DNA of 64,000 bases from Tubiluchus corallicola (Eukaryota; Priapulida; Priapulimorpha; Priapulimorphida; Tubiluchidae), in the NCBI GenBank assembly GCA_030141605.1, contig JAQGDQ010000022.1:496001-560000 (forward strand), given 5' to 3'. This document shows positions 1 through 45,723 of this stretch, piece by piece (the first letter of the stretch is position 1; every line of letters starts with the position of its first letter). The translations under genes and the position numbers were made by a program. The notes under the pieces were generated by a model. That model ran no database searches and was not told the DNA's origin. It worked only from the letters and a program-made list of their open reading frames with translations.

Positions 1-1708
1 TTGTATTGAAAAACACTAACTTTCACGACTCACAGCTTGTGTTCAGGCTCTCAGGGTGTAAAAAACGAATTCTTCTTGTTAACATAACAGTGCAGTTAGT
101 TAAAATACACCAGTGGTTGTTTTTGTTTGTGAATAAGGATCGGTCGTGCTGCAAGCCCAAGCACATAAAAATGATAAAGAGAATTAGCTATAAACTGTTA
201 ATTCAACTGTTTTATAAATTCTCTAAAACAGATATTTGTCCTGATAGACTGCAAAGATCTGCTTTCATCATATCATCATCATACGCCCGTCACGTCTATT
301 GTAGATATTGGGCAGGCAGAATTCTAAAATAAAAGAATAAATAAAATAATTTTAACGGAAGTGGTGCTGACAAGCCACTGGCGTAGCAGTGTCTAGTTTT
401 TCTGCTGGATTACTGCTACGTTTACCTGTCTGAAAGCAGAAAGATCTGCTTTGTATACTTTGGAATAGGTATCAATATGATGAATCTTCTAATAATAAGT
501 ACAAACTTTCAGTCAAAGCATACTCATATTGCCAGTCTCAAAGAAAATAAAATGAGAAATTAATGTAGAACTTTTTCAATCACGATAATGAACGTTAAAC
601 GCGGAAATTATGGTAACGATTGTAATTTATTGTCAGATAATTGTACATTTTATATTTCCGTCTTCAAACATTCTGTTACCGTTACCGTCGAAGGATAGAG
701 GTTAAGCATACATAGCTGATAAACCTCTCCATTCTTCCTTGTTTACTTTATCACTATTTAACAATTCTGTAGCGATCATAGACATAGAACATTTATTTTC
801 TCTAGTTAGTTTAACATCAAAAGTTTTTTAAATATTAAGTAATTATAATCATGGAGTAGGGCAGGGAAGGACCATAGGGTCATCCAGTCTCCTGCCCTTT
901 CTTATAAATAGATTGGTATATTAAAAATTAACGGTGATGCTGCAGATAACAAAAACGAATAAGAAAAAATAATAAAAACAGTATAAATGATACAAATTAT
1001 CCAAAAAGAACTGAAAACAAAAAATAATAAAGTTAGATACCTAAAGCTAAACAAAACAATACAATTATTCGGTAATTAGGATTATTATATGTAGTAGTTT
1101 CAAATGGGGTCTTATTAAGGTTAGTGAGTAAAGTTAAAAACTGAGAGTATGGAAAGAAAAAAATAAGCATCAAAAGTGTATTATAGAAAATTTATGAGAA
1201 AAAGTAAGTATGAGAAAGAGCAACAATTACTTAGGAGATGAGGAGAAAAAAAGAAAAGAAAGAAAAACTTGCTAGCTTGCTTATTAGTCTTACAAGTTAT
1301 GTACTACTGGTATATCCATTTAGTAAGATTTTTGTGTATTTTTTGGAAGCAGAAAATAAGCTATCTTCAACGGTATCTTTTGGCAACGAATTCTATAATT
1401 TAACTCCTCGTGATTTTAAGCTATTGAAACCATTAGAAGCAGCTCTTGTGAAGTAGGAATGTATATCAGAAACATTAGTGAAATAATAAACCAACATTGA
1501 ATTTATACATAAATTTGAACAACTCAAGATTGTAAATATCTCTTACCTTTAAAATTTGTAATTTTATGAACGATGGTGTGGCATGATCATATTTGCGAGC
1601 AAAAGTTATTAATTTTACTATTTTGTTTTGTTGTGTCTGTATTAATTTTTGAATTGATGCAAAAGCCGTACCCCATGTTAAGATGGAATATTGTAAATAA
1701 GGGAAAAT
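1..1708. other. Gene-free left edge
   Basis: No coding region is supported. The open frames here are short and have neither family resemblance nor splice context. The block lies 3' of the minus-strand LINE fragment at 1709-2400, so part of it may be the decayed 3' end of that element. A short repeat shared with 9157-9210 lies at 357-412. Confidence 0.6.
357..412 (+). repeat. Short dispersed repeat shared with 9157-9210
   Basis: The block starts with GAAGTGGTGCTGACAAG and continues with a GTAGCAGTGTCT-like segment. The same order recurs at 9157-9210 with mostly transition differences. The second copy sits directly upstream of a LINE RT fragment, so the repeat could be LINE-associated or an independent short element. 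It is too short to classify. Confidence 0.55.
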
Positions 1709-2400
1709 TCATGAATTATATAGAAGTTTCAGAATATATTGGTCAACGTAGTGCCTGATTTTTAAAATTATTCCGGTAATTCGACTTAATTTGTATGTCA
1801 TGTGTTTTACATGTGGTTCCCATGATAATTTGTTATCAATAAGTAGGCCCAAGTATTTGATGTTGTCTGTTTCTTCAATTTTGTGTTTGTTTATTATAAT
1901 ATGAAATTTTGGATTATTAGCACTGTTAATTTGCTTGTTGTTGATTATCATAAATTTGGTTTTTTTGTAGTTAATTGATAGCTGGTTTGCCCTCATCCAC
2001 AGGTCTATTTTCTTCATTTCTTCATTAACAGTTTTTTGCAGATTATTTATATTGGAGTCAGACATGAACAAATTAGTGTCATCGGCAAATAATCAGATTC
2101 AAAAGTTGCTGCATGTGGGGATAAATTAAGAATAGAAGAGGTCCTAAATTAGAGCCTTGTGGCACTCCACACGATATGTGTTTATAGTCTGATGATACAT
2201 GTTAATAGATATGAATTGTTTTCTGTTAGTTAGATATGACTGAATTAGTTGCAAAGGTAGACTTCTGATGCCGTAATGGTTTAATTTGGCTATTAGTATA
2301 GTATGCTATACGGTATCAAAAGCTTTTGATAAGACTAAAAATATTCCACAATTCAGTAATTTTTTGTCAGTGTCTAGATCAGTGTTAGTTTAAACAATAT
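1709..2400 (-). mobile_element. Non-LTR retrotransposon RT fragment, decayed
   Basis: Read on the minus strand, the right half gives, in shifting frames, a D-L-S-K-A-F-like segment, the RT signature G-V-P-Q-G-S-N-L-G-P and a degraded F-A-D-D-T block. The left half (1709-2071) is an open stretch with the post-RT pattern L-W-M-R-A-N-Q-L-S-I-N followed by K-Y-L-G-L-L-I-D. These are RT and thumb-region hallmarks of Jockey/CR1-superfamily LINEs. Frameshifts and stops break the frame, so it is a dead copy. The exact clade is not resolved. Confidence 0.85.
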
Positions 2401-2467
2401 TTTTATTTGGCAAGGAACATTACAATCATAAGTACAATAAATACAATAGCCAATAAATCAAACACTG

Positions 2468-2610
2468 ATTGGCTAATATGTATGTTTACTTATGTTGTCT
2501 TAAGGGATCGTTGTTCACACCATTCACAAAAACCTCATTGGCAGCAACTACTCCGATCCCCAGGGAAGAAGAAAGCAGTATTACTGCAGCAGACTTCTGC
2601 CTTTCAGAGA
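2468..2610 (+). repeat. Dispersed repeat family A, copy 1 (5' part)
   Basis: It aligns with 3721-3840 and with the reverse complement of about 5430-5505. The shared core is GAAAGCAGTATTACTGCAGC followed by AGACTTCT, preceded in all three by a GTTCACA or GGCAACAAC-type lead. Only the 5' third of the unit is present here. Identity is by eye. Confidence 0.65.
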
Positions 2611-3032
2611 GTAGATACGTCATTTATAACACACATGATTACAAGAACTATTACTGTTAGTTACAAAGCAGAACGAGACTGAGAAAGTTAAGTAAAGTTT
2701 TCAGTAGTGGTGTGCGAAAGGGTGGAACAAGTTGGTTATGATGTGTTTGATGTTGATGTTCAGCTATGATGTTCAAAAATAGAATGAATGATAATGAAGC
2801 TAATGCAAGAAAAATGAAATTATTGGGGTTACGGGAATGCAAAAGTATAAATAATTTGCTCTGTCAGGTAGAATTCAGAGATTTTAATGTACTATAGATT
2901 TAATTTTATTAATGAAAGCACCCACTTTGTATGATAAGCGAAATAAAAGCAGCTACATAGCATTGCTAGAATCACTAGAAAGTGAGATATGGCCGTATAG
3001 TAGTACTTAGATTTTATTCCGAGTGAGTACAT

Positions 3033-3440
3033 TTATAGGATAGATATACTGGGTACGGATTTGTTGGTAGAGTGGATAGTGCAATAGAAAATTACGTGGT
3101 TAGGATCTTCATAGGGAGCGCCACAGGAGCACTGCGGAGAAGGGCAAATGAAATTAAAATATGTGTGTGCTTTTAGCAAACTGCAATTCATTCTTATCCG
3201 TGGCATATGAACCTGCCCAAACCTAGCACCAGCAGTAAAATGAAGTGGTGAGTTACTAACTTTAAAATCACCTACGTTGTCTAGCTTACGTTTAAACTGA
3301 GTAAGCGAGTGGGCATTTCTAATGTGAAGGGGCAAATTGTTTCAAACTTGGGTTGTCACACTTATAAAAGAACTTTGGCAAAGACTAGTTCTATGATATT
3401 CATTATAAAATTGGTCGCTATTACAAAGTGCATAATTCCC
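3033..3440 (-). mobile_element. LINE 3' end with C-terminal CCHC-like motif
   Basis: The minus strand encodes the usual tail of an invertebrate LINE ORF2. It contains W-N-N-L-P-L-H-I-R-N-A-H-S (with one frame change), then R-I-R-M-N-C-S-L-L, then a C-x-C-G-A-P-x-E-x3-H-x4-C cluster typical of the post-RT zinc-knuckle region. The open part spans 3033-3335. It may belong to the same insertion as 1709-2400, but order and spacing do not prove it. Confidence 0.8.
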
Positions 3441-3720
3441 TGTAATCATTCTTACTGTGGGTATTTTCTAGGTTTGAAGTAGTAGTAGTAATGATAATAT
3501 TCTAATTAGTTTTTAGTCGTGTTGTGTAGGTGAAGGAGTTGTGAATGAATGTATACTATCGATGTAGCCCCTCCCATTCACTGCTTAGAACCTTTTGTAA
3601 TAACAAAGTCATCAGTCAAAGCTTGTTACTCTGATTAGACTAAACAAACAAAGTAATGAGACTGAGGAAAAAGTTGGGTTTTGTAACTATTAAGGTAGAA
3701 ATACAGCGTTTAATAAAAAA

Positions 3721-4110
3721 ATTGGCTTGCTTACATATGTTGGCTTCGGGGATCTTTGTTCACATCGGTGCACTAAATCGTTACCTTCTTTGATCTACGT
3801 AAAGACGAAAGCAGTATTACTGCAGCAGACTTCTCTTGAAAAAGTGTTCAGGATTTGTGTTTTTAAGACGGTGGCGGAAAGCAGTAGTAGAATTGCAACC
3901 GATAATGATAGGGTAGAAACGACACAAATAGTTCCAAACCAGCACTACTCTAACTGCAAAACTAGCTTGGTGAAGTTAAGTCTGGCACAGTCATTGAAAT
4001 GTTTGTAGTTTCCCCTAGTGTATAGCTTAACATGTCGCAGCTGAAGAATTCATCGAAACTGAATATGACAAGCTGCCGTGAATGATATTATATACCATAG
4101 CTAAATAACA
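3721..4110 (+). repeat. Dispersed repeat family A, copy 2 (longest plus-strand copy)
   Basis: This 390-bp copy matches the reverse complement of 5150-5505 over most of its length. Both contain the GAAAGCAGTATTA core, an ACCGATAA-GATGGGTA-like block, GACACAAATAGTT, AACTGCAAAACTAG and ATCGAAACTGA. A weak frame is shared (T-Q-I-V-x-N...K-T-x-L-x-K-L), which could be a relic of coding sequence. No TIR, poly(A) tail or RT homology was seen. Confidence 0.7.
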
Positions 4111-5149
4111 TGTAAACGTCTTTCCTCCAATACTGTTATGTAGAGTTCTTGCAATTGCTGGGGTTAAGTAAGACTCTCCATAACTGCATCTCCACTTATA
4201 AATCTTTTCTGTACTGATTCCAGCACATTAGTGTCTTACAAATAACAACGGTCACACACTGATCTTGCATGCTCGAGATATTACAAACGAACAAAACAAC
4301 CAAAGTCTGAAATCTTAAACTCAGGCTTAGAAATTGACATTAATCATTCTCAACAAGCCGTTAGCTTTCTTGGCGATAATATTAACTATAGTGAATGTGA
4401 TTTGGGGGTGATCACAACTTTGCATTTTAATGAGTGCTTTTGTTTATAATGATAATTGCTGGCTATATACAATGGTCTAAACTATGGGCAAAAATTCAAA
4501 TTTGCAAAAATTGTGGTCCACATTTAATAGAAATACACAGTTCGTATCTTCCAAGTTTCAGCATGTTTTCTCGGCTGCATCGAAACAACTAGTATAGTAC
4601 CTGTTTGCCGAAAATAAAAAAAGTTGTGTGCAATATGCAAAATTTCCTTCTCTGGGCATATTGCAAAAAATTACATTACACTCTTTTCAGATTCTTGCGA
4701 CAAAGGAATTCCTTTCGCCTTGCTTGTTCGGTTATAGACAAACTCTGTCATGTAGTTTTACAAGTTACCTAGGTTACCTAAAATGATGTACAGAGCCTAT
4801 AGGTTTTCCTTGACAAATGTCTGCATTTGTTTGCACAGGACGCATATGCCAGCTAACAACTTTTCTAACAAAATAGTAAGGACAAAATAGTAATAGTAAG
4901 GACAGCATAATTGTGCTGTCTAATAGCTCTTACGTGTTAAGCCAACGTTAGATAAAATGTATGTGTATGAACACGTGAGTCCAGTTTTGGAACTCATATT
5001 ATTTGAAAGACATTGATGTGTTGGAATAAGTACAGAGAAGCTTTACATGTGGAGTTTCAGGTATGGGGACTCTTACTTTCCCTCTTTCTCTCTTCCCTTT
5101 CCCTCACCAATTGCAAAAACTCCACATAAATTATCATCACTGAAAGAAA
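4111..5149. other. Spacer between inverted family A repeats
   Basis: No gene, RNA or recognisable mobile element was found. The block is the loop of a large inverted pair formed by repeat copies 2 and 3. Confidence 0.5.
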
Positions 5150-5505
5150 AATATTTACAAGCTTATTTAGATATAATATGTAATGCCATTCGTGGCAATA
5201 TTATGCTCAGTTTCGATGATTTTTTCAGCTCTGCCATATTAAGCCATGCACGAGGGGAAATTACAGACTTTTCAATGACCCTGCTAGACTCAAGCTTCGC
5301 CAATCTAGTTTTGCTGTTAAAAGACTGCCAATTTGAAACTATTTGTGTCATTTTTACCCATCGTTATCGGTGCCAAGTCTACCAATGTTTTCTGCCACCA
5401 TGTCAAAAATTCAAATCTTGAGCACCTTTTGAAGTGCACAAGTCTGCTGTAATAATACTGCTTTCTTTTCTGGGAATTGAAGTTGTTGCCAACATGGATT
5501 CCTTG
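5150..5505 (-). repeat. Dispersed repeat family A, copy 3 (inverted)
   Basis: The reverse complement of this block aligns with 3721-4110, forming an inverted pair about 1 kb apart upstream of the TTC24-like gene. Its minus strand holds a 62-codon open frame that aligns with a broken frame in copy 2. The family may therefore have carried a short ORF, or the match may simply reflect nucleotide identity. Confidence 0.7.
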
Positions 5506-5796
5506 CAGTGATGCGAATTTCCAAAGCCAGTAAATATAAGTAAAAGTAGTTATGAACTATGTGTAGATGATACTTTCTTGTTGTTTAAAGATGAAGCACA
5601 CATCTCGCCCGTTTGTTTAATAGTTGAATAAGCAACACTTGAGCATATAGTTTTCCAATGTTCTTGAAAATAAAACCTTGCCATTTTTGGATGTCTCAAT
5701 TACACAGTCTGGCAGTGGAGTATGATTTTTCTAAAGTATGCTAAAGCCTAATTATGTTAATTTTTACTTTTGTTTATATAAGCTTTCTTAATTTTC

Positions 5797-5815
5797 TCTT
5801 TTATTTATTTTCCAG
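5797..5815 (+). promoter_or_regulatory. Probable 3' splice site in TTC24-like 5' UTR
   Basis: A long pyrimidine-rich tract ends in TTTTCCAG at 5815, 24 bases before the start codon. This suggests that the coding exon is preceded by at least one non-coding exon. The upstream exon was not located. Confidence 0.55.
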
Positions 5816-5839
5816 GTTCTATGAAAATAAGGTGAAAAG

Positions 5840-7762
5840 ATGGACAGTGACAATGATGATATCTTGTCCTTAGTGGAGCAGTACACAGCTACTGGTCACT
5901 CATTCGTTGAGAAGGGTATAATGAAAGAAGCTCTGACGGCTTTCCAAACGGCATTCAAGTTAGCTGTTCAATCAGAAGACGAAGTTGTAGAAAGATCTTG
6001 CGCCTTTAACTTGGGTGCTGTGTACATTGCATTGAAGGATCCTATTAAGGGATTAGATTATTTGCATCAAGCTCTTCCTCCAGAAAGTTCTTCGGAGCAT
6101 CATGCAAGTACTGCTGTAAATGACGATGATGATAGTGATGCCGATTCTGGTGATCTATTTTTTAACTTTGCATTGGCACACGAAACATTGGAGGACTATG
6201 AAGAAGCGCTGCGTTACTATGGAAAAGCACTTTCAGCGTACCATCAATACACTCCCAAAAATTCGTTCATGGAGGGTGAGGTGTGTATCAAGCAGGGAAT
6301 GATGTACAGTAAACTGCTAAAGCCAATACAGGCAGCAGAGCATTTCTGCAATGCTGGTAAGGCATATGCGCAAGTGAATGCTCATCGACGACAGGCTACT
6401 GCTTTACTTTACCAAGCTAATCAGCTTTTGGGTGGTGCAAAACAGGATGAATGTGTTTCCGCTTTAGAAACATGTGTAGGCGTGTGTCAAAAACTTCCAC
6501 AGACAAAAGAGCTAGGAAAGCTGTTAAATGAGATTGGTTTGACATTTATGTTAAGTAAGCAGTACTATCGTGCAGCTACTTCTTTTGAATCTGCACTTCC
6601 GGTTATTCGATCTTGCAAGCTAAAAAATCCAAAACATGAAGGAGTAATTTTGCAAAATTTAGGAGCTTCATATAATGCACTGGGGGAATATCAACGTGCA
6701 CTGCCTGTTCATAAAGCAGCTACGGTTTTGCATGGTGAATTAGGCAATAGAAGTTCACAAGGTCAGAGTTACTGTAACCTTGCATATGCTTATGCTCAGC
6801 TCGAAAAGTATGATAATGCTGGTGAAGCTTATTTGCTTGGTTTGCAGGCCTTTAGAGATACAGGTGACAGGCACAGTCAATGGCAGGCATTAGAAGGCCT
6901 AGGTTCTGTAAGCTTCCATCAATGCAGATATGATAAAGCAGTACAGTTCTTTGAATTAGCATTGAATGTCATATCTACTTCAGAATTCAACACCAGTGCA
7001 CAGTCACGTATAGTTACCAAATTATCTGATGCTCTGCAGCATCAACTGGAACAGCAGTTGACTCTACAGGGTGCACTAAGAGGCTTTACACCCATGGCTT
7101 ACCATAGAGGATACGAAAGTGACATAGGCTTTGGAAAGACCTACGTATCAAATCCCATTTCTAGACATATTTCCCATGCTGGGCACGTTCAACCATTTGT
7201 AGTTCCACAGAGCATGTCTGCTGGAAATGTTTGTAATGCATCTGCGGCACATGGCTCATCTGTGTCACGGAAGCAACAAAAGGAAACCAGTGAAACTGCA
7301 GAGTGTACAGGTCGTGTTACTATTTCTCAACAGCAGAAGGCAACAGCATTAACTAATGGAGATTTGACTGTAAAATTTTCTTCTGCTTCTTCTGTAGAAT
7401 CATTGAACAGTTCTGTGTTAGAGCCAACACCAGTGACGAGTGAAATAACTCCTATCGAAGAAATGAATGAAGAGGCCTCAAATGAAGTTACAGTAAACAA
7501 TAAATTAACAAAAGTTCCTAAAATGAGGAAAAAAGAACCTAGTACGTTAAGAAAAGTAATGCAGCCACAGCTTTCTGCTGACTTCTTATTTGATAGAAGT
7601 GATTTAGCTTTGCCAGAACGAGGCCGTATGAATGCTGACGAATATCACAGACATGTAGCTGAACAAAATGACTTTGAAAAGCATTTGCGACAAAATAATA
7701 TGCGACATCACTCAAAAAAGATTAGGCTAAAATGGGGTTCTAAAGTTTGTGGTGTGATGTAA
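5840..7762 (+). CDS. TTC24: TTC24-like tetratricopeptide repeat protein with C-terminal CaaX box
   Basis: A 640-residue TPR protein encoded without introns. Roughly nine TPR-like helical pairs run from about residue 13 to 382. They include the recognisable TTC24 blocks C-A-F-N-L-G-A near 54, L-x-N-L-G-A-S-Y-N-A-L-G-E-Y near 271 and Q-W-Q-A-L-E-G-L-G near 347. An acidic insert (N-D-D-D-D-S-D) lies near 94. Residues about 410-565 are Ser/Thr/Gln-rich and probably disordered. The last residues are K-K-I-R-L-K-W-G-S-K-V-C-G-V-M: a polybasic stretch followed by C-G-V-M, a CaaX box whose terminal Met would favour farnesylation. TPR domains bind peptides or proteins, so a membrane-anchored adaptor is the inferred role; TTC24 function itself is poorly known. 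The start follows a probable splice acceptor, and homology begins at once after it. The single-exon structure contrasts with the intron-rich TUT1 gene nearby. Confidence 0.88.
   Translation: MDSDNDDILSLVEQYTATGHSFVEKGIMKEALTAFQTAFKLAVQSEDEVVERSCAFNLGAVYIALKDPIKGLDYLHQALPPESSSEHHASTAVNDDDDSDADSGDLFFNFALAHETLEDYEEALRYYGKALSAYHQYTPKNSFMEGEVCIKQGMMYSKLLKPIQAAEHFCNAGKAYAQVNAHRRQATALLYQANQLLGGAKQDECVSALETCVGVCQKLPQTKELGKLLNEIGLTFMLSKQYYRAATSFESALPVIRSCKLKNPKHEGVILQNLGASYNALGEYQRALPVHKAATVLHGELGNRSSQGQSYCNLAYAYAQLEKYDNAGEAYLLGLQAFRDTGDRHSQWQALEGLGSVSFHQCRYDKAVQFFELALNVISTSEFNTSAQSRIVTKLSDALQHQLEQQLTLQGALRGFTPMAYHRGYESDIGFGKTYVSNPISRHISHAGHVQPFVVPQSMSAGNVCNASAAHGSSVSRKQQKETSETAECTGRVTISQQQKATALTNGDLTVKFSSASSVESLNSSVLEPTPVTSEITPIEEMNEEASNEVTVNNKLTKVPKMRKKEPSTLRKVMQPQLSADFLFDRSDLALPERGRMNADEYHRHVAEQNDFEKHLRQNNMRHHSKKIRLKWGSKVCGVM
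7550..7561 (+). other. Candidate internal 5' splice site in the TTC24-like gene
   Basis: AAAA|GTAATG puts a possible donor after base 7555, at a codon boundary (after residue 572). It lies 15 bases before the start of the block (7571) that is paralogous to the exon at 11008-11364, whose acceptor is also phase 0. Splicing here would swap one CaaX tail for the other. The donor is only moderately strong and is an inference. Confidence 0.35.
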
Positions 7763-8010
7763 ATAATATACACATGTGTAACAATTATGTGCGCATGTCA
7801 ATTTTTATGAAAATAATTAATGAAAATGTGAATATTTGGAGGTATTTCATGTTATGATGATGTAGCAAATCTATATATACAATAATTAAAGTGTCTAATA
7901 GAACAAAATGTTGTAGCAAAGTATTGTAATTTTGTTATTAGCTGCAATGAGGCAATTTTTAATATTACAGTAACGAGTTCTTGGAACCACTGCTTGTGAA
8001 GTCAGATGTG

Positions 8011-8066
<56 letters not shown>

Positions 8067-9156
8067 GTATATGATCAGCCTAATCACATTGATTGCAAAT
8101 ATATAAGTATTTCTTTACGTATGGATGTAACGAAATCCCGGCTGTTATGTACATTTTATGATGATCGGCAAGTGCTGCATGCCATTATAGTATTGTATCT
8201 GTATCTTACAACCACAGATGATTAAATGTCATGTTCAGATTCTCTAACTTTTTTTACTTGTTGCCCTTAATCATTCAGTACTAATGCAGAAGTTGTCATT
8301 AATAGCTATTCATTTTCCACGTTTATGTTTGCTCATTTTCTTGTGCAAATGCGGCTCGCATCTATATGGCTTTGCACCTGTTTTGGTATCTCAGTTTTTT
8401 CATTGTGCTAGGACTATGTTTCAAGAAAAAACGTTTTATTGTGTGTTGATAATTATTTATGTTTCGTGAATCTGTTTAGATGTTCTAATGACATTCTTAT
8501 GATTGAATTTTGATCTTTTTCAATGGCAGTTATGTATTAAAAGTGCAATAATTAGCACTTCCATGGCATTATTTAAAATAAAAATTTTAATGTTTAAGTG
8601 CATTTGTGGCAAATTGCTTTATAATAGCAGACATTCTTTAATAATAATCATTTTGTCAAATCACCATGTTGGCTTGTGTAGAACAAATGTTTTTGGTAAG
8701 TTTTATGTTTGTGCACACTAATTCTAATAATATTTTTGTTGTTTAAGTTAAATTTGAATTATTCAAATTATTAACTGTATCTTTAGCTATTAATGCGATG
8801 CAGTCGTGCGATTTTTACAAACAATTGCTATTGTAACTCATAAGCTTCCAAGTAAAAAATCAAGAAGGCAAATAAGTTGGAAAACTGCTTTTGCAATCAA
8901 TGCATTTGGCTGATCGTAATAATCAAAAGTGCAGGGAATTCGTTATCTTAATCATCATTGTTTAGCCTGTTGTTGCTTTTGACCTATCGATAGTTAGTAC
9001 TTTTCAAAATCAATATTAATGACTCCTGAGCGAGAGTTCTCTTTCTCAACAGATTGGTCGCGGGTAACAACTTATATTACCTAACAACTTTAAAGCCTAA
9101 TCTAGAGGTCTCCCGTATTGTGAAAATGCAGCAATCTGCACAAGAGGACTTTTTCA
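7763..9156. other. 3' flank of the TTC24-like gene
   Basis: This is AT-rich DNA and probably includes the 3' UTR. AATAAA/ATTAAA-like hexamers occur (ATTAAA near 7885, AATAAA near 8577), but none is clearly the used signal. No further coding region is supported. Confidence 0.5.
8012..8060. repeat. (TA)n microsatellite
   Basis: About 24 uninterrupted TA dinucleotides, in the probable 3' UTR or flank of the TTC24-like gene. Confidence 0.97.
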
Positions 9157-9740
9157 GAAGTGGTGCTGACAAGTCATTGGTATAGCAATGTCTTGTTTTG
9201 TTGGGCAACTGTTAATGTTATTCTGCATGAATCATCAAAACCATCCGGGCAGCATGCTTTTTCATATATTTTAGTGTCGTTTTATTGCGAATTAATAAAA
9301 ATCAATGACTGGATGTTAGCCAACAGACTGTCCGTAAATTTAACAAAAACCAGGTACATGCTAATTGGAAGGAACGTATCACAAAAGGGGAATTCACTGT
9401 TTAATTTAAAAATAGGTAACCATGGTTAATTTTAAGCCAACTGCATTAAGTACCTTGGGCTCCAAATTGATAGTCAATATTAATACTATAGTATAGCAAC
9501 AAAACTAAGTAAGACTGCACGTATATTTGCAAAACTACATTACTTTATATGGCAACCCTCAAAATGACATATTTCACTTTAGTGTATCCTGACTTACAGT
9601 ACTGTGTGGTATGCTGGGAAAAACAAAGCAATATATATTACAACCATTTTATAAAACAAAATTGTTAAATTAATTACGTTCTCTCATTACACAGCACTAC
9701 ACATTTTTATAACCAGCTAAATGTACTAAAAGTTTTTGAT
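9157..9740 (+). mobile_element. LINE RT-thumb fragment, decayed
   Basis: The plus strand reads I-N-D-W-M-L-A-N-R-L-S-V-N-L-T-K-T, the conserved block after the RT catalytic region in Jockey/CR1-type LINEs. In other frames it continues with K-Y-L-G-L-Q-I-D and a degraded Y-S-T-V-W-Y-A-G segment. Frameshifts and stops are frequent. The 5' boundary is marked by the short repeat also seen at 357-412. Confidence 0.8.
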
Positions 9741-9754
9741 ATATATATTTATAA

Positions 9755-10085
9755 GATTCGAGGCTGCAGCTTATGCGGCGATCTATATATCAAACAAAAG
9801 GTCTCAATCTAGTGACGTGCCATTGGGGAATTACTTTTCGAATCAGGCCCATCGTGACGAACGGGGGGGGGGACGAAAAACCTCTTATTTCTGAAGAACA
9901 GGATAGGGTGGTGCTGGTTATGGATAGATAGCCCGTTCAGCGGTGGGTGTAGTAGGCGTATTTAGAATTCGCGAGAGGGCCATGGCGTCCCATAACGGAA
10001 GTTTTCCCGGACCCAACTCCTGATTTTTTCAAAATTTTGACCAAACAACATGCGGAACAAACATCCTAGCGGAGCCTGGTGGAAC
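9755..10085 (+). repeat. GC-richer dispersed repeat family B, copy 1
   Basis: It begins GATTCGAGGCT and shares with 10453-10772, in the same order, GGCGATCTATATATCAAAC, AAGGTCTC, CCTCTTATTTCTG, GATAGCCCGTTCAGCGGTGG, GTGTAGTAGGC, GGCCATGGCGTCCC and CTGATTTTTTCAAAATTTT. Both copies are in direct orientation and follow a (TA)n-like stretch. No coding capacity or RT homology was found. A non-autonomous element or a small satellite is possible. Confidence 0.85.
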
Positions 10086-10452
10086 TCCCGAACAGAGATA
10101 TATAGCTCCTTAGAAAGAGGAGGAATAGGGCTACACAATGGTGTAGGCTGTATTTTAGGACACGTCCACCAAGAGGAGTGATGACGAGTTAATTAGATGT
10201 TCCATTTTTGGCAGTTTTCACTTGGAAAACTGCTGACGCAAAGCCATTGTTCTGACGTCATCCATTATACTCTGTCTGTAACCTTATAACTTTAATTCAG
10301 TAAAACTGCTGCTGGCTTTGCATTACAAATGAGGACTATGTGGGATGTTCGTGTATTATTGATTGTAAGCGTACTTATTATGTGCAAAACTTTTTGCGGG
10401 GGCCTTTGCTAGTCTATACATTAATTTCGGTGGTATATATGTGTATATATTA

Positions 10453-10772
10453 GATTCGAGGCTACGCTTTCAACGGCGGCACCATTTACGGCGATCTATA
10501 TATCAAACGAAAGGTCTCGAAACCTCCAAAATTTTTCGGCCATCTTTTGCAAAACTTATACCTCTTATTTCTGGAGAATGGGAACGTCCCGGGGGCGGTG
10601 TCAGTAATGGTTAGATAGCCCGTTCAGCGGTGGGTGTAGTAGGCATATTTAGAATTTGTGAGAAGGCCATGGCGTCCCGTAATGGACGTTTTCCTGGACC
10701 TAATGCCTGATTTTTTCAAAATTTTTACCAAACAGCCTTCAGAAGAAACGTTCTAGCGGTTCCTGGTTGGAC
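10453..10772 (+). repeat. GC-richer dispersed repeat family B, copy 2
   Basis: Direct-repeat partner of 9755-10085. The two differ by substitutions and by a replaced segment after the AAGGTCTC block. It lies in the putative intron that would precede the alternative TTC24-like tail exon. Confidence 0.85.
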
Positions 10773-11007
10773 TTATTATTCAGTTTAATATGATAAAAAA
10801 GTTTTGTAGGTTCACATATCGGATATACAGGTAACGCCAGATACCCATTGCCTTTTTCCCTTTAGGCTCTTTAGTAAGTTTGTTGTTTAGTAAGTTTGCT
10901 TTAAAACAAATTTATAATAATCACCTAAAATAACTTTAGTTAAAAAAGCAATTTTTTTGTTTACCTATTTAATCTCATTAGTGTTATTTTGTTTTTCCCT
11001 GACTCAG

Positions 11008-11364
11008 GAAAAGAGCTCCATGTCAAGTTCAGCAACACTTCCTGGAGAAGCTGACCTCTTAAATGACATAAATGAGAATGATACTGGCAGTGAGTTGATG
11101 GATACCCAAACTACCCAAGGTGGTGAAAAAGATGGTGAATTGATGGTCAGAGAATTGGTGCAAAATTTAACTCTTTCTCATGACTTTCTGCTGTGCTCTG
11201 CCAACTTATCTGCATTATCTCGAGGACAGAGAGATGCTGCAATGTTTGAAAAGCATGTTGCTATGCAAGATGACTTCAAAGACAAGCGGCGGCAAAGCAA
11301 TATGCCACAATCTCGGAAAAAACGTAGACAGAAAAGGGGCTCTAAGGTTTGTGCTGTGATGTAG
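11008..11364 (+). CDS. Second CaaX-tail exon, probable alternative last exon of the TTC24-like gene
   Basis: An acceptor (TTTTCCCTGACTCAG, ending 11007) opens a 118-codon frame with a stop at 11362-11364. The last 63 residues align without gaps to the last 63 residues of the TTC24-like protein, with about 30 identities. Shared points include L-S-x-D-F-L, R-G, H-V-A-x-Q-x-D-F, R-Q-x-N-M, K-K and G-S-K-V-C-x-V-M. The end reads R-K-K-R-R-Q-K-R-G-S-K-V-C-A-V-M, a stronger polybasic region than the upstream tail plus a C-A-V-M CaaX box. Many codon differences in conserved positions are third-base changes, suggesting selection on the protein. The first 55 residues are acidic and Ser/Thr-rich, with no family match. 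It could be an alternative last exon, the 3' exon of a separate gene, or a fading duplicate. Confidence 0.72.
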   Translation, partial: EKSSMSSSATLPGEADLLNDINENDTGSELMDTQTTQGGEKDGELMVRELVQNLTLSHDFLLCSANLSALSRGQRDAAMFEKHVAMQDDFKDKRRQSNMPQSRKKRRQKRGSKVCAVM

Positions 11365-14130
11365 ATGAGTTTTGCCGAAAACAACAATTTGTGCTGTGAT
11401 CTGATTAACTACCTAAAATACTTCGATTTTCTGTCTAGCTTTGCTTATGAACTGTGATATTGTATGATGCAAAAAATGTAATATTTCTTAAAATATACAT
11501 GGCCTAATGCATTTGTATAATTGTTGTACTTTGTGACCAGTATTAGTTTTAAACTAGTGGCTGTAGTGACCATAGTGAAATAGGAATCTATCTATAATGG
11601 TTAATATTGACTGGTATTGTTATTGCAGATGTTTGCCAAGCATTGTGTGTGCACCTTGATTGCTTAATGGTTGAAAAAATGGAAGAGTAATTTAATTCAT
11701 TTGGAATTATGATACTGGCCATATTTAATAAGCGCATTAGATCGTATTTTGTATTACTTCACAACACATTAAATTAATGTTCCATTGTTGAGTTTAATAA
11801 TGTTAGAATGCTGTTTTGCCTAGTTTTCTTAAAGAGGGACAGGACACAATTTTAAAGCACAACGCAAAGTGATCTAGCTTATAGAATATTGAACAAGAAC
11901 ATAATTGCTTTTTTATAGTGACTTGCATGAAAGAATTATTATCGTGGAAGTTTAATTTCATGTCCGCACCTGTTACGTGCATTTTGCCATTTGCTAGTTA
12001 GATGGGCAACAGCTCCTGCATCTTGGAAACACATCGCACAAAAAACAGGCACTGTACCTCTCAGTTCAGTTATGACACTTGTCGAGAAATTGCATGATGA
12101 CATGGCAATATGCTTGGAATTTAGATTTTTAAACCCGGTTTTTGTGCATCATGGTGAATGTTGTACAGCGGCACTGTATTTCAATTTTCACTTTTGCTAA
12201 CATGCACAACACGGTCGTGGAATGTTTGTGCTCTTACAAAATTATGTTCACTTCTAACGCCATCACCTACTGTGCTCCCCGGCCCTTAGTTTAGTTTTTA
12301 AAAGAAAAGCCAAGTTTTTAAGGAAGTTGAGCTTATTTTAATATTTGAGAAAATGTTAGAAAGTTTAAGCAATGAAACTGTGATAAACATCTTGTGTAAT
12401 TAGTAAAAAACAATTATAGCCACAATAACTGCACAATTGGGCATGCTCATTTTGAATGAAAAATGGCACCGGTTAGTGTACAATATAAACGTTTATCCTC
12501 CCTGGTTGTGCAAACTTTTTTGCAACTATTGTAAACTATAAACTGTGCATAATGTTAAATAAGAGAATATTAATATTATTTTTTAGCTTTTTGATGAACC
12601 GTGTTGCCCAGTATAATAATAATGCTCACTGTGCAATGAAAACCATTACCGACGATAATATGATAACATCCAACTCCGCTAGTTATGACGATAAAGTAAC
12701 AGAATGATAATTTTAACAGGTTAAAAGTGAACTCTAAGCTAAGTAAACTGCCGTTTCCTTAACTCACCTACTGTATGCTCGGGGCCTCACAGACTTCCAT
12801 GCTTATCCTTAATTATTATTAAGTGTAGTACTTATGAGGTCAATCCTGAAAATTAAAGCTATGCAAGCACTTTTGAGGTGTTGCTAATTGATCTCCTGAC
12901 TAGTTTTTGCAAAAATACGGTTATTAGTCAGCTAGAATAGCAGAATTTCTAAGTGAGCTACGAAAGTTTTCTTTTGCGTGTTTTCGTGCTGTCCACCAAT
13001 TTACGTCTTTCTTTCAAATATGACTGCAGCAAAGTTTGTTTGGTGAGGGGTACGAATTACATAAATTTCTTTTGCATTTTCAAGCTAGTCATTTTATCTG
13101 CGTAAATTGCAGTAATTTTAATATTTCTAAGTGTTTGAAAAGACAATGAATGTTGTCCTAGGGCTGGTTTTCTTCTTTAAGCTATTTTTTAATTGTCAGA
13201 AATGCTTTGATATTAGTATAGTGTTTTGCATAATTTTTATAAAGTGTACTTACCCATAGTATTATGTGGTTAACTAGTGGTGCAAGTCCAGGTTTTTTAT
13301 GAAATTTGTTATTTTAGGAGATTCATACTTGGCATTATTTTTGTGCAAACATCATATCATTTTTCTTCATGTCCTTGCATGTATGTAAATTGTTTCCAAA
13401 TTTTACGGCCAGTAAACTTAGCTAAATCAATTTGACTGTAATTTGCTTGTTGATAACATGATTGATGATGATAAATTTTATTTTGCATATTTAAATGTAC
13501 ATTAAAGTTTTAATTATGATGAAGTCATACAGTTGCTCTTTTTGTATTTTTTGTTGGGAAAGGAGGTTTGCATAGGTCTGTCCATATTTTACATGGTACA
13601 ATATGCTAGGTTGTTGCACGCCTTGATACGATGCAGCGACAAATTTTTATAATGATTTAATACTATGATTTTGATTAAAAATTGTCATGTTTGTGTTATA
13701 ATTACCCATGTAGCCAATAATTTAAGTTTTTTGCTATGTTTTTAATATTTGTCTGGAACTAAGATGGTATGTCTGCTGCAACAACATCATCTATTGATTA
13801 CATGTGGTGGTCTTTGCGTTCCCCTTCCTCTTGTTTTGTAGCCTTTTATTTTGAATCTCCAAACTTTTTAATGGTAGTGTATCAGTGTTTTTCAAGGAAA
13901 ATTTAGCCATAAATATGCAAGTTCATTCAAAAAGCAACCTTATGTGATCTCTGTGAAAAACCTGTTGCTTAACACAAATGTACTTGATTCAGGTAATTGT
14001 TTCATTTTCTTTACCCAAAAACAACATTACAGCCCCTGATTAGTCAACAAAATAAAATAGTGTAGATACTTACATTAAATTTTGTCAAATTCAGAGATCA
14101 CGCCACTCCGTCTTACTCAGCCTGCTCAAA
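11365..14130. other. Gene-free stretch
   Basis: AT-rich DNA with only short, featureless open frames. The left part may be 3' UTR of the exon ending at 11364. No structured RNA or repeat was recognised. Confidence 0.5.

Positions 14131-23476: not shown

Positions 23477-45723
<22,247 letters not shown>

Follow-up and report, generated by a model that had tools for sequence, protein, structure and literature searches.

A 64,000-nucleotide stretch of the Tubiluchus corallicola genome (contig JAQGDQ010000022.1, positions 496,001 to 560,000, forward strand; hereafter the window) carries a gene for a tetratricopeptide repeat (TPR) protein that ends in a CaaX box (coding sequence (CDS) 5840-7762, +). 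Downstream on the same strand lies a second CaaX-tail open reading frame (ORF; 11008-11364), which is constrained and sits behind a good acceptor-like site. We propose that 11008-11364 is a functional terminal coding exon that arose when the CaaX-tail segment of the adjacent TPR gene was duplicated long ago, and that the TPR gene would most likely use it as an alternative last exon, a reading to which we assign a probability of about 0.4. The large coding exon would then be a composite terminal exon. Read-through would yield a tail ending in CGVM, and splicing from an internal phase-0 donor to 11008 a more basic tail ending in CAVM. Each tail would carry a farnesyl group, and the two would differ in the electrostatic strength of their hold on membranes.

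The two tails are homologous. The C-terminal block of the TPR protein (7571-7759, +; a basic stretch followed by CGVM) and that of the downstream ORF (11173-11361, +; with the more basic stretch RKKRRQKR) align in BLASTP without gaps over 63 residues, 30 of them identical (E 2e-15), much as the first-pass annotation of this DNA had described. Its coordinates, frames and phases are also correct (640 aa for 5840-7762 and 118 aa for 11008-11364). The gapless BLOSUM62 score of the pair is 134; 20000 shuffles have a mean of -47, a standard deviation of 16 and a maximum of 21. The DNA of the tails is identical at 112 of 189 positions, and over the 64 codons of tail plus stop the identities per codon position are 40, 42 and 32, with the third position lowest. 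The comparison of nonsynonymous (dN) and synonymous (dS) divergence that the annotation had suggested gives dN/dS of 0.456/1.598 (NG86), 0.436/0.974 (LWL85), 0.522/1.478 (YN00) and 0.483/1.423 (maximum likelihood), that is, dN 0.44-0.52 and dS 0.97-1.60 over the four estimators.

Neutral simulations, run without insertions or deletions, rarely reproduce this similarity. Sequences diverged to the same DNA identity keep 19.2 amino acid identities on average (standard deviation 2.7, maximum 29), and at least 30 are kept in 0 of 6000 runs. With an unconstrained copy at 0.5 substitutions per site, the frame stays open and 30 or more identities survive in 6 of 4000 runs begun with the upstream tail and in 13 of 4000 begun with the downstream tail; at 0.8 and 1.0 substitutions per site neither starting tail gives such a copy in 4000 runs. 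Such copies are fairly frequent at 0.3 substitutions per site (295 and 398 of 4000), so the downstream copy may have gone through a short unconstrained spell. The level of dS and the rarity of such copies in the neutral runs suggest that the tail duplication is old and that, for much of the period that followed, both copies were probably maintained as protein; constraint is here measured jointly between the two tails. That 11008-11364 is a decaying duplicate, an untranscribed copy of the 3' end of the TPR gene, seems quite improbable to us. The copy is truncated, the spacer holds mobile-element debris, for example at 9917-10083 and 10604-10771, and the neutral runs at 0.3 substitutions per site do give an open, similar copy. 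Against decay stand 118 open codons, a CaaX box that is kept at a dS of about 1-1.6, and the scarcity of such copies in simulations at half that distance or more.

Both proteins have a cysteine four residues from the C-terminus (CGVM and CAVM). C-x-V-M is permissive for CaaX modification, and methionine in the last position directs farnesylation, so that both products are predicted to be farnesylated. The basic stretches near the CaaX box read HSKKIRLKWGSKVCGVM in the TPR protein and SRKKRRQKRGSKVCAVM in the downstream ORF, and the difference in basic charge that had been pointed out earlier is evident from the translations. The downstream block has no match in the PDB up to E 10. A designed helix bundle in the PDB matches the upstream block (E 1.5e-5 over 25 residues); no stretch passes alone, and we take this match as an effect of composition.

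The duplication appears to have involved the tail segment only. The upstream tail forms the last part of one large coding exon and is no discrete last exon, from which we conclude that a segment and not a whole exon was copied. The "duplicated last exon" of the first-pass annotation thus stands as far as the homology of the tails is concerned and falls where the upstream tail is concerned, which lies inside the uninterrupted CDS 5840-7762. Detectable homology is limited to the 63 residues. The similarity of the 3' flanks does not exceed chance (131 of 300 shuffles reach the score), nor does that of the stretches preceding the two tails (70 of 300) or of the two acceptor regions (61 of 300). 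A duplication of the whole gene followed by deletion of its TPR part was rejected, as the N-terminal 55 residues of the tail exon are unlike four parts of the TPR protein (339, 377, 346 and 171 of 500 shuffles reach the score). The longer flanks 5400-5900 and 10600-11100 gave a suggestive similarity (8 of 300 shuffles) that was dropped because real segments of the window score equally well (25/344, 21/344 and 5/67 acceptor-anchored).

The putative terminal exon (11008-11364, +) comprises 118 codons and a stop and ends in CAVM. Its acceptor, TTTGTTTTTCCCTGACTCAG/GAAAAG at 11008, is in phase 0, as annotated earlier, and scores 7.03, fifth among the 3478 AGs of the + strand under a simple weight matrix; all splice matrices used here are general ones, untrained on this organism. 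A coding segment at 10999-11358, beginning 9 nt before the exon start, reaches 27.2 bits and is the second best of the window after the TPR CDS, which was itself used for training. Because the scan was trained mostly on the TPR CDS, homologous tail included, this score is inflated. With a smaller model the non-homologous part alone scores 13.6 bits (background 95th percentile 7.6, 99th 14.0; 415 stop-free windows) and the whole exon 28.3 bits (99th percentile 23.1; 49 stop-free background windows). The exon has no stop in frame 0 and has 6 and 12 in the other frames. A weak resemblance to ORC5_C (E 0.009; 16.7 bits against a cut-off of 28.2) was taken as chance.

The exon does not obviously supply its own start. 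The in-frame stretch 5' of the acceptor contains no ATG back to 10921, and the first ATG inside the exon (11020) is 12 nt past the acceptor in a weak context, with T at -3 and T at +4. The ATG of the TPR gene (5840) has A at -3 and G at +4, and this difference is one reason to favor the alternative-last-exon reading. Within the window, the TPR exon appears to be the sole strong coding partner for 11008, as nothing comparable lies to its left on the + strand. The best coding segment is 8.2 bits in the spacer (7763-11007) and 8.2 bits in 1-5839, compared with 27.2 bits for the tail exon, although the scan could miss short exons (2 of 6 neighboring training stretches fall below 9 bits). A tblastn search of the window with the TPR protein returned, apart from the gene itself and the tail, only matches of E 4.6 or worse. 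There are therefore two likely kinds of partner for 11008 within the window: the coding exon of the TPR gene, and a 5' exon that is short or lacks coding sequence.

A 5' exon of this kind could give rise to a separate or TPR-less CaaX protein of about 114-133 aa, starting at ATG 11020 or in the 5' exon, and this product would be a competitor of the TPR protein for partners or for sites at membranes. The 5' exon might belong to the short product alone or serve the TPR gene as well; one that ends at 5060 is an example. There a donor-like site, CAG/GTATGG (5058-5066, +), scores 9.51, which could be chance, and the phase-0 frame ending at it (5007-5060, +) opens with an ATG: MCWNKYREALHVEFQ. Joined to 11008, this exon may yield a protein without TPRs, if its frame is not itself a chance occurrence; spliced to 5816, it would place a short upstream ORF ahead of the start codon of the TPR gene. 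The TPR gene seems to be built in the same manner, with an acceptor-like site 24 nt before its ATG and a single coding exon, ATG 11020 lies close behind its acceptor, and no good donor follows the TPRs in the CDS. We nevertheless regard a short product as somewhat unlikely. The context of ATG 11020 is weak, the 5060 frame is possibly chance, and no whole-gene copy is visible, with the N-terminal 55 residues and the 3' flank unlike the TPR gene and the 5' flanks similar only at chance level.

Alternatively, a different multi-exon gene could end with 11008-11364; it might be a TPR paralog with exons to the left of the window, the TPR gene then lying in its last intron or between its exons. A phase-0 acceptor without an obvious start of its own would fit such a gene, the intronless TPR CDS could be a retrocopy, and short exons could have escaped the coding scan. 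We consider this unlikely, as the window holds no second TPR-coding stretch at E below 4 and no strong + strand coding segment in 1-5839 or 7763-11007.

Alternative last-exon use of 11008 requires a donor within the TPR CDS, where 38 of the 109 GTs are in phase 0. The first-pass annotation had named AAA/GTAATG (last exon base 7555; 7553-7561, +). This site exists and is in phase 0, and it scores 3.22, ranking 22nd of the 109 GTs and fifth of the 38 in phase 0. A weak phase-0 site, CCA/GTGACG (last exon base 7432; 7430-7438, +), scores 3.77, and the strongest phase-0 donor-like site of the CDS, GAG/GTGTGT (last exon base 6280; 6278-6286, +), scores 9.27, with 0.19 expected among 38. AAG/GC at 7339 is a candidate GC donor from a list of GC sites that carries no scores.

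Several of these observations count against a tail switch. Sites matching the score of donor 7555 make up 13.2% of the GTs of the window on both strands, so that 5.0 of 38 would be expected and the site is at chance level. Past the TPR region no phase-0 GT donor exceeds the 3.77 of 7432, and none of the 15 phase-0 GTs of 7083-7571 has G at -1. Use of 6280, the sole strong phase-0 donor, would truncate the TPR array behind residue 147. Six putative donors of a neighboring gene score 5.14-12.32 and all have G at -1; they were identified by eye, among their exons just the one that ends at 31183 matches Pfam, and a seventh possible donor near 37579 and the donor of the 27.6 kb exon were left out of the scoring. 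The upstream CDS is intronless, and a duplicated discrete exon is not seen. The neutral passes at 0.3 substitutions per site belong on the same side. The specific junction from 7555 to 11008 thus has no sequence support, its donor being at chance level and having A at -1, compared with G in all six neighboring donors.

Composite terminal exons often carry weak donors. A chance-level donor therefore lowers the likelihood of a tail switch without excluding it. On the acceptor side, seven of eight neighboring acceptors were located, and 11008 (7.03) scores above all of them; five of the seven score 2.6 or less (one -4.46), which points either to errors in some of these boundaries or to an acceptor matrix ill suited to this genome. 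The alternative-last-exon reading is based on the homology of the tails, the constraint between them, the strong phase-0 acceptor and the absence of another strong coding partner in the window. The isoforms proposed in the first-pass annotation accordingly keep a constrained CaaX-tail ORF that follows a good acceptor on the strand of the TPR gene and lose the donor named for them. We tentatively envision, at somewhat less than even odds, a TPR scaffold with switchable anchors, in which isoforms carry weak and strong electrostatic-lipid tails and a TPR-less tail protein perhaps competes with them.

The predicted gene at 5840-7762 is an animal-like TPR gene. Its CDS is one unbroken ORF of 640 aa within an exon at 5816-7762 (+) that holds the entire coding sequence. 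The putative acceptor in the 5' untranslated region (5815/5816) scores 5.93. The best Pfam match of the repeats is TPR_12 (E 1.5e-22; 80 bits against a curated cut-off of 30.1), and among PDB structures the sequence comes nearest to the TPR domains of GPSM2/LGN and Pins (best: GPSM2, E 8.6e-12). The Pfam matches of the protein, listed up to E 1, do not include a GoLoco model. Layout and motifs presumably resemble those of human TTC24; among the matches listed from open-access papers, none pairs CaaX with TTC24 or its full name. An AlphaFold model made without an alignment is poor (pLDDT 41). No relatives were confirmed in bacterial or archaeal genomes or viral contigs, in a search that can omit near records, and this fits the animal-like character of the gene.

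Behind the stop codon of the TPR gene lie ATTAAA at 7885, a (TA)n array (8012-8072) and AATAAA at 8577; past the tail exon, ATTAAA is present at 11768. Further into the spacer, the stretches 9917-10083 and 10604-10771 read alike, have one BLASTN copy each in the window and are probably a relic of a mobile element.

The window as a whole is eukaryotic and animal-like, with introns, microsatellites and a fragment resembling the reverse transcriptase of long interspersed nuclear elements (1712-2092, -; RVT_1, E 7.1e-6, below the cut-off). ARAGORN, run with the bacterial code, found no tRNA in it, and Rfam gave 0 matches at gathering scores. The neighboring multi-exon gene (27600-37600, +) encodes a central palm domain like that of mitochondrial poly(A) polymerase (MTPAP-like_central, PF22600; E 6.9e-8 in ORF 30864-31184, exon about 30927-31183); its other exons were read by eye. 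A nearly pure (CA)n microsatellite of about 330 bp occupies 34613-34945 and is uninterrupted over 34613-34798. A 259-codon ORF (42735-43511, +) includes the third-best coding segment of the window (42921-43412); it encodes imperfect internal repeats of about 27 aa and, up to E 0.1, matches no Pfam model.

Among proteins that switch tails through alternative last exons, small GTPases are the best known. KRAS4A and KRAS4B each have a CaaX box at the end and differ in their basic stretches, and their exons are spliced from one upstream donor. Exons 4A and 4B are reported to be two homologous last coding exons of one locus that are spliced mutually exclusively, with the suggestion that exon 4A derives from an exon of another RAS gene, NRAS exon 4 (PMC9882654). 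As in KRAS, two homologous C-terminal coding segments lie here in tandem on one strand (30/63, E 2e-15). Unlike in KRAS, the first tail lies inside an uninterrupted CDS, a strong acceptor adjoins the downstream copy only, and a donor within the exon is needed, for which no site of convincing strength was found. The source of the duplicate is indicated here by the resemblance of the two tails, and the protein is a TPR protein and not a GTPase. The likeness to KRAS4A/4B drawn in the first-pass annotation is apt as an analogy and goes no further.

A second parallel is CDC42, whose v1 and v2 variants (tails CVLL and CCIF) have alternative C-termini that reportedly alter lipidation and membrane partitioning (PMC4745753). 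The products considered here would share alternative, lipidated C-termini with these variants. They would differ from CDC42, in which the type of lipid changes, as both tails are C-x-V-M, neither has a second cysteine beside the first, and basic charge is the main difference between them. The solved structures nearest in sequence to the TPR region are those of GPSM2/LGN and Pins; the protein described here is set apart from them by its CaaX tail and by the lack of a GoLoco model among its Pfam matches. Among the open-access matches listed, none describes a TPR protein with two CaaX tails in its title or the start of its abstract. If the proposed mechanism is real, it would extend tail switching to adaptor proteins and provide a case of an old tail duplication kept under selection. 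It would then belong with the tail switching of KRAS4A/4B and CDC42, in an unusual class of protein and with the first tail encoded in a composite exon.

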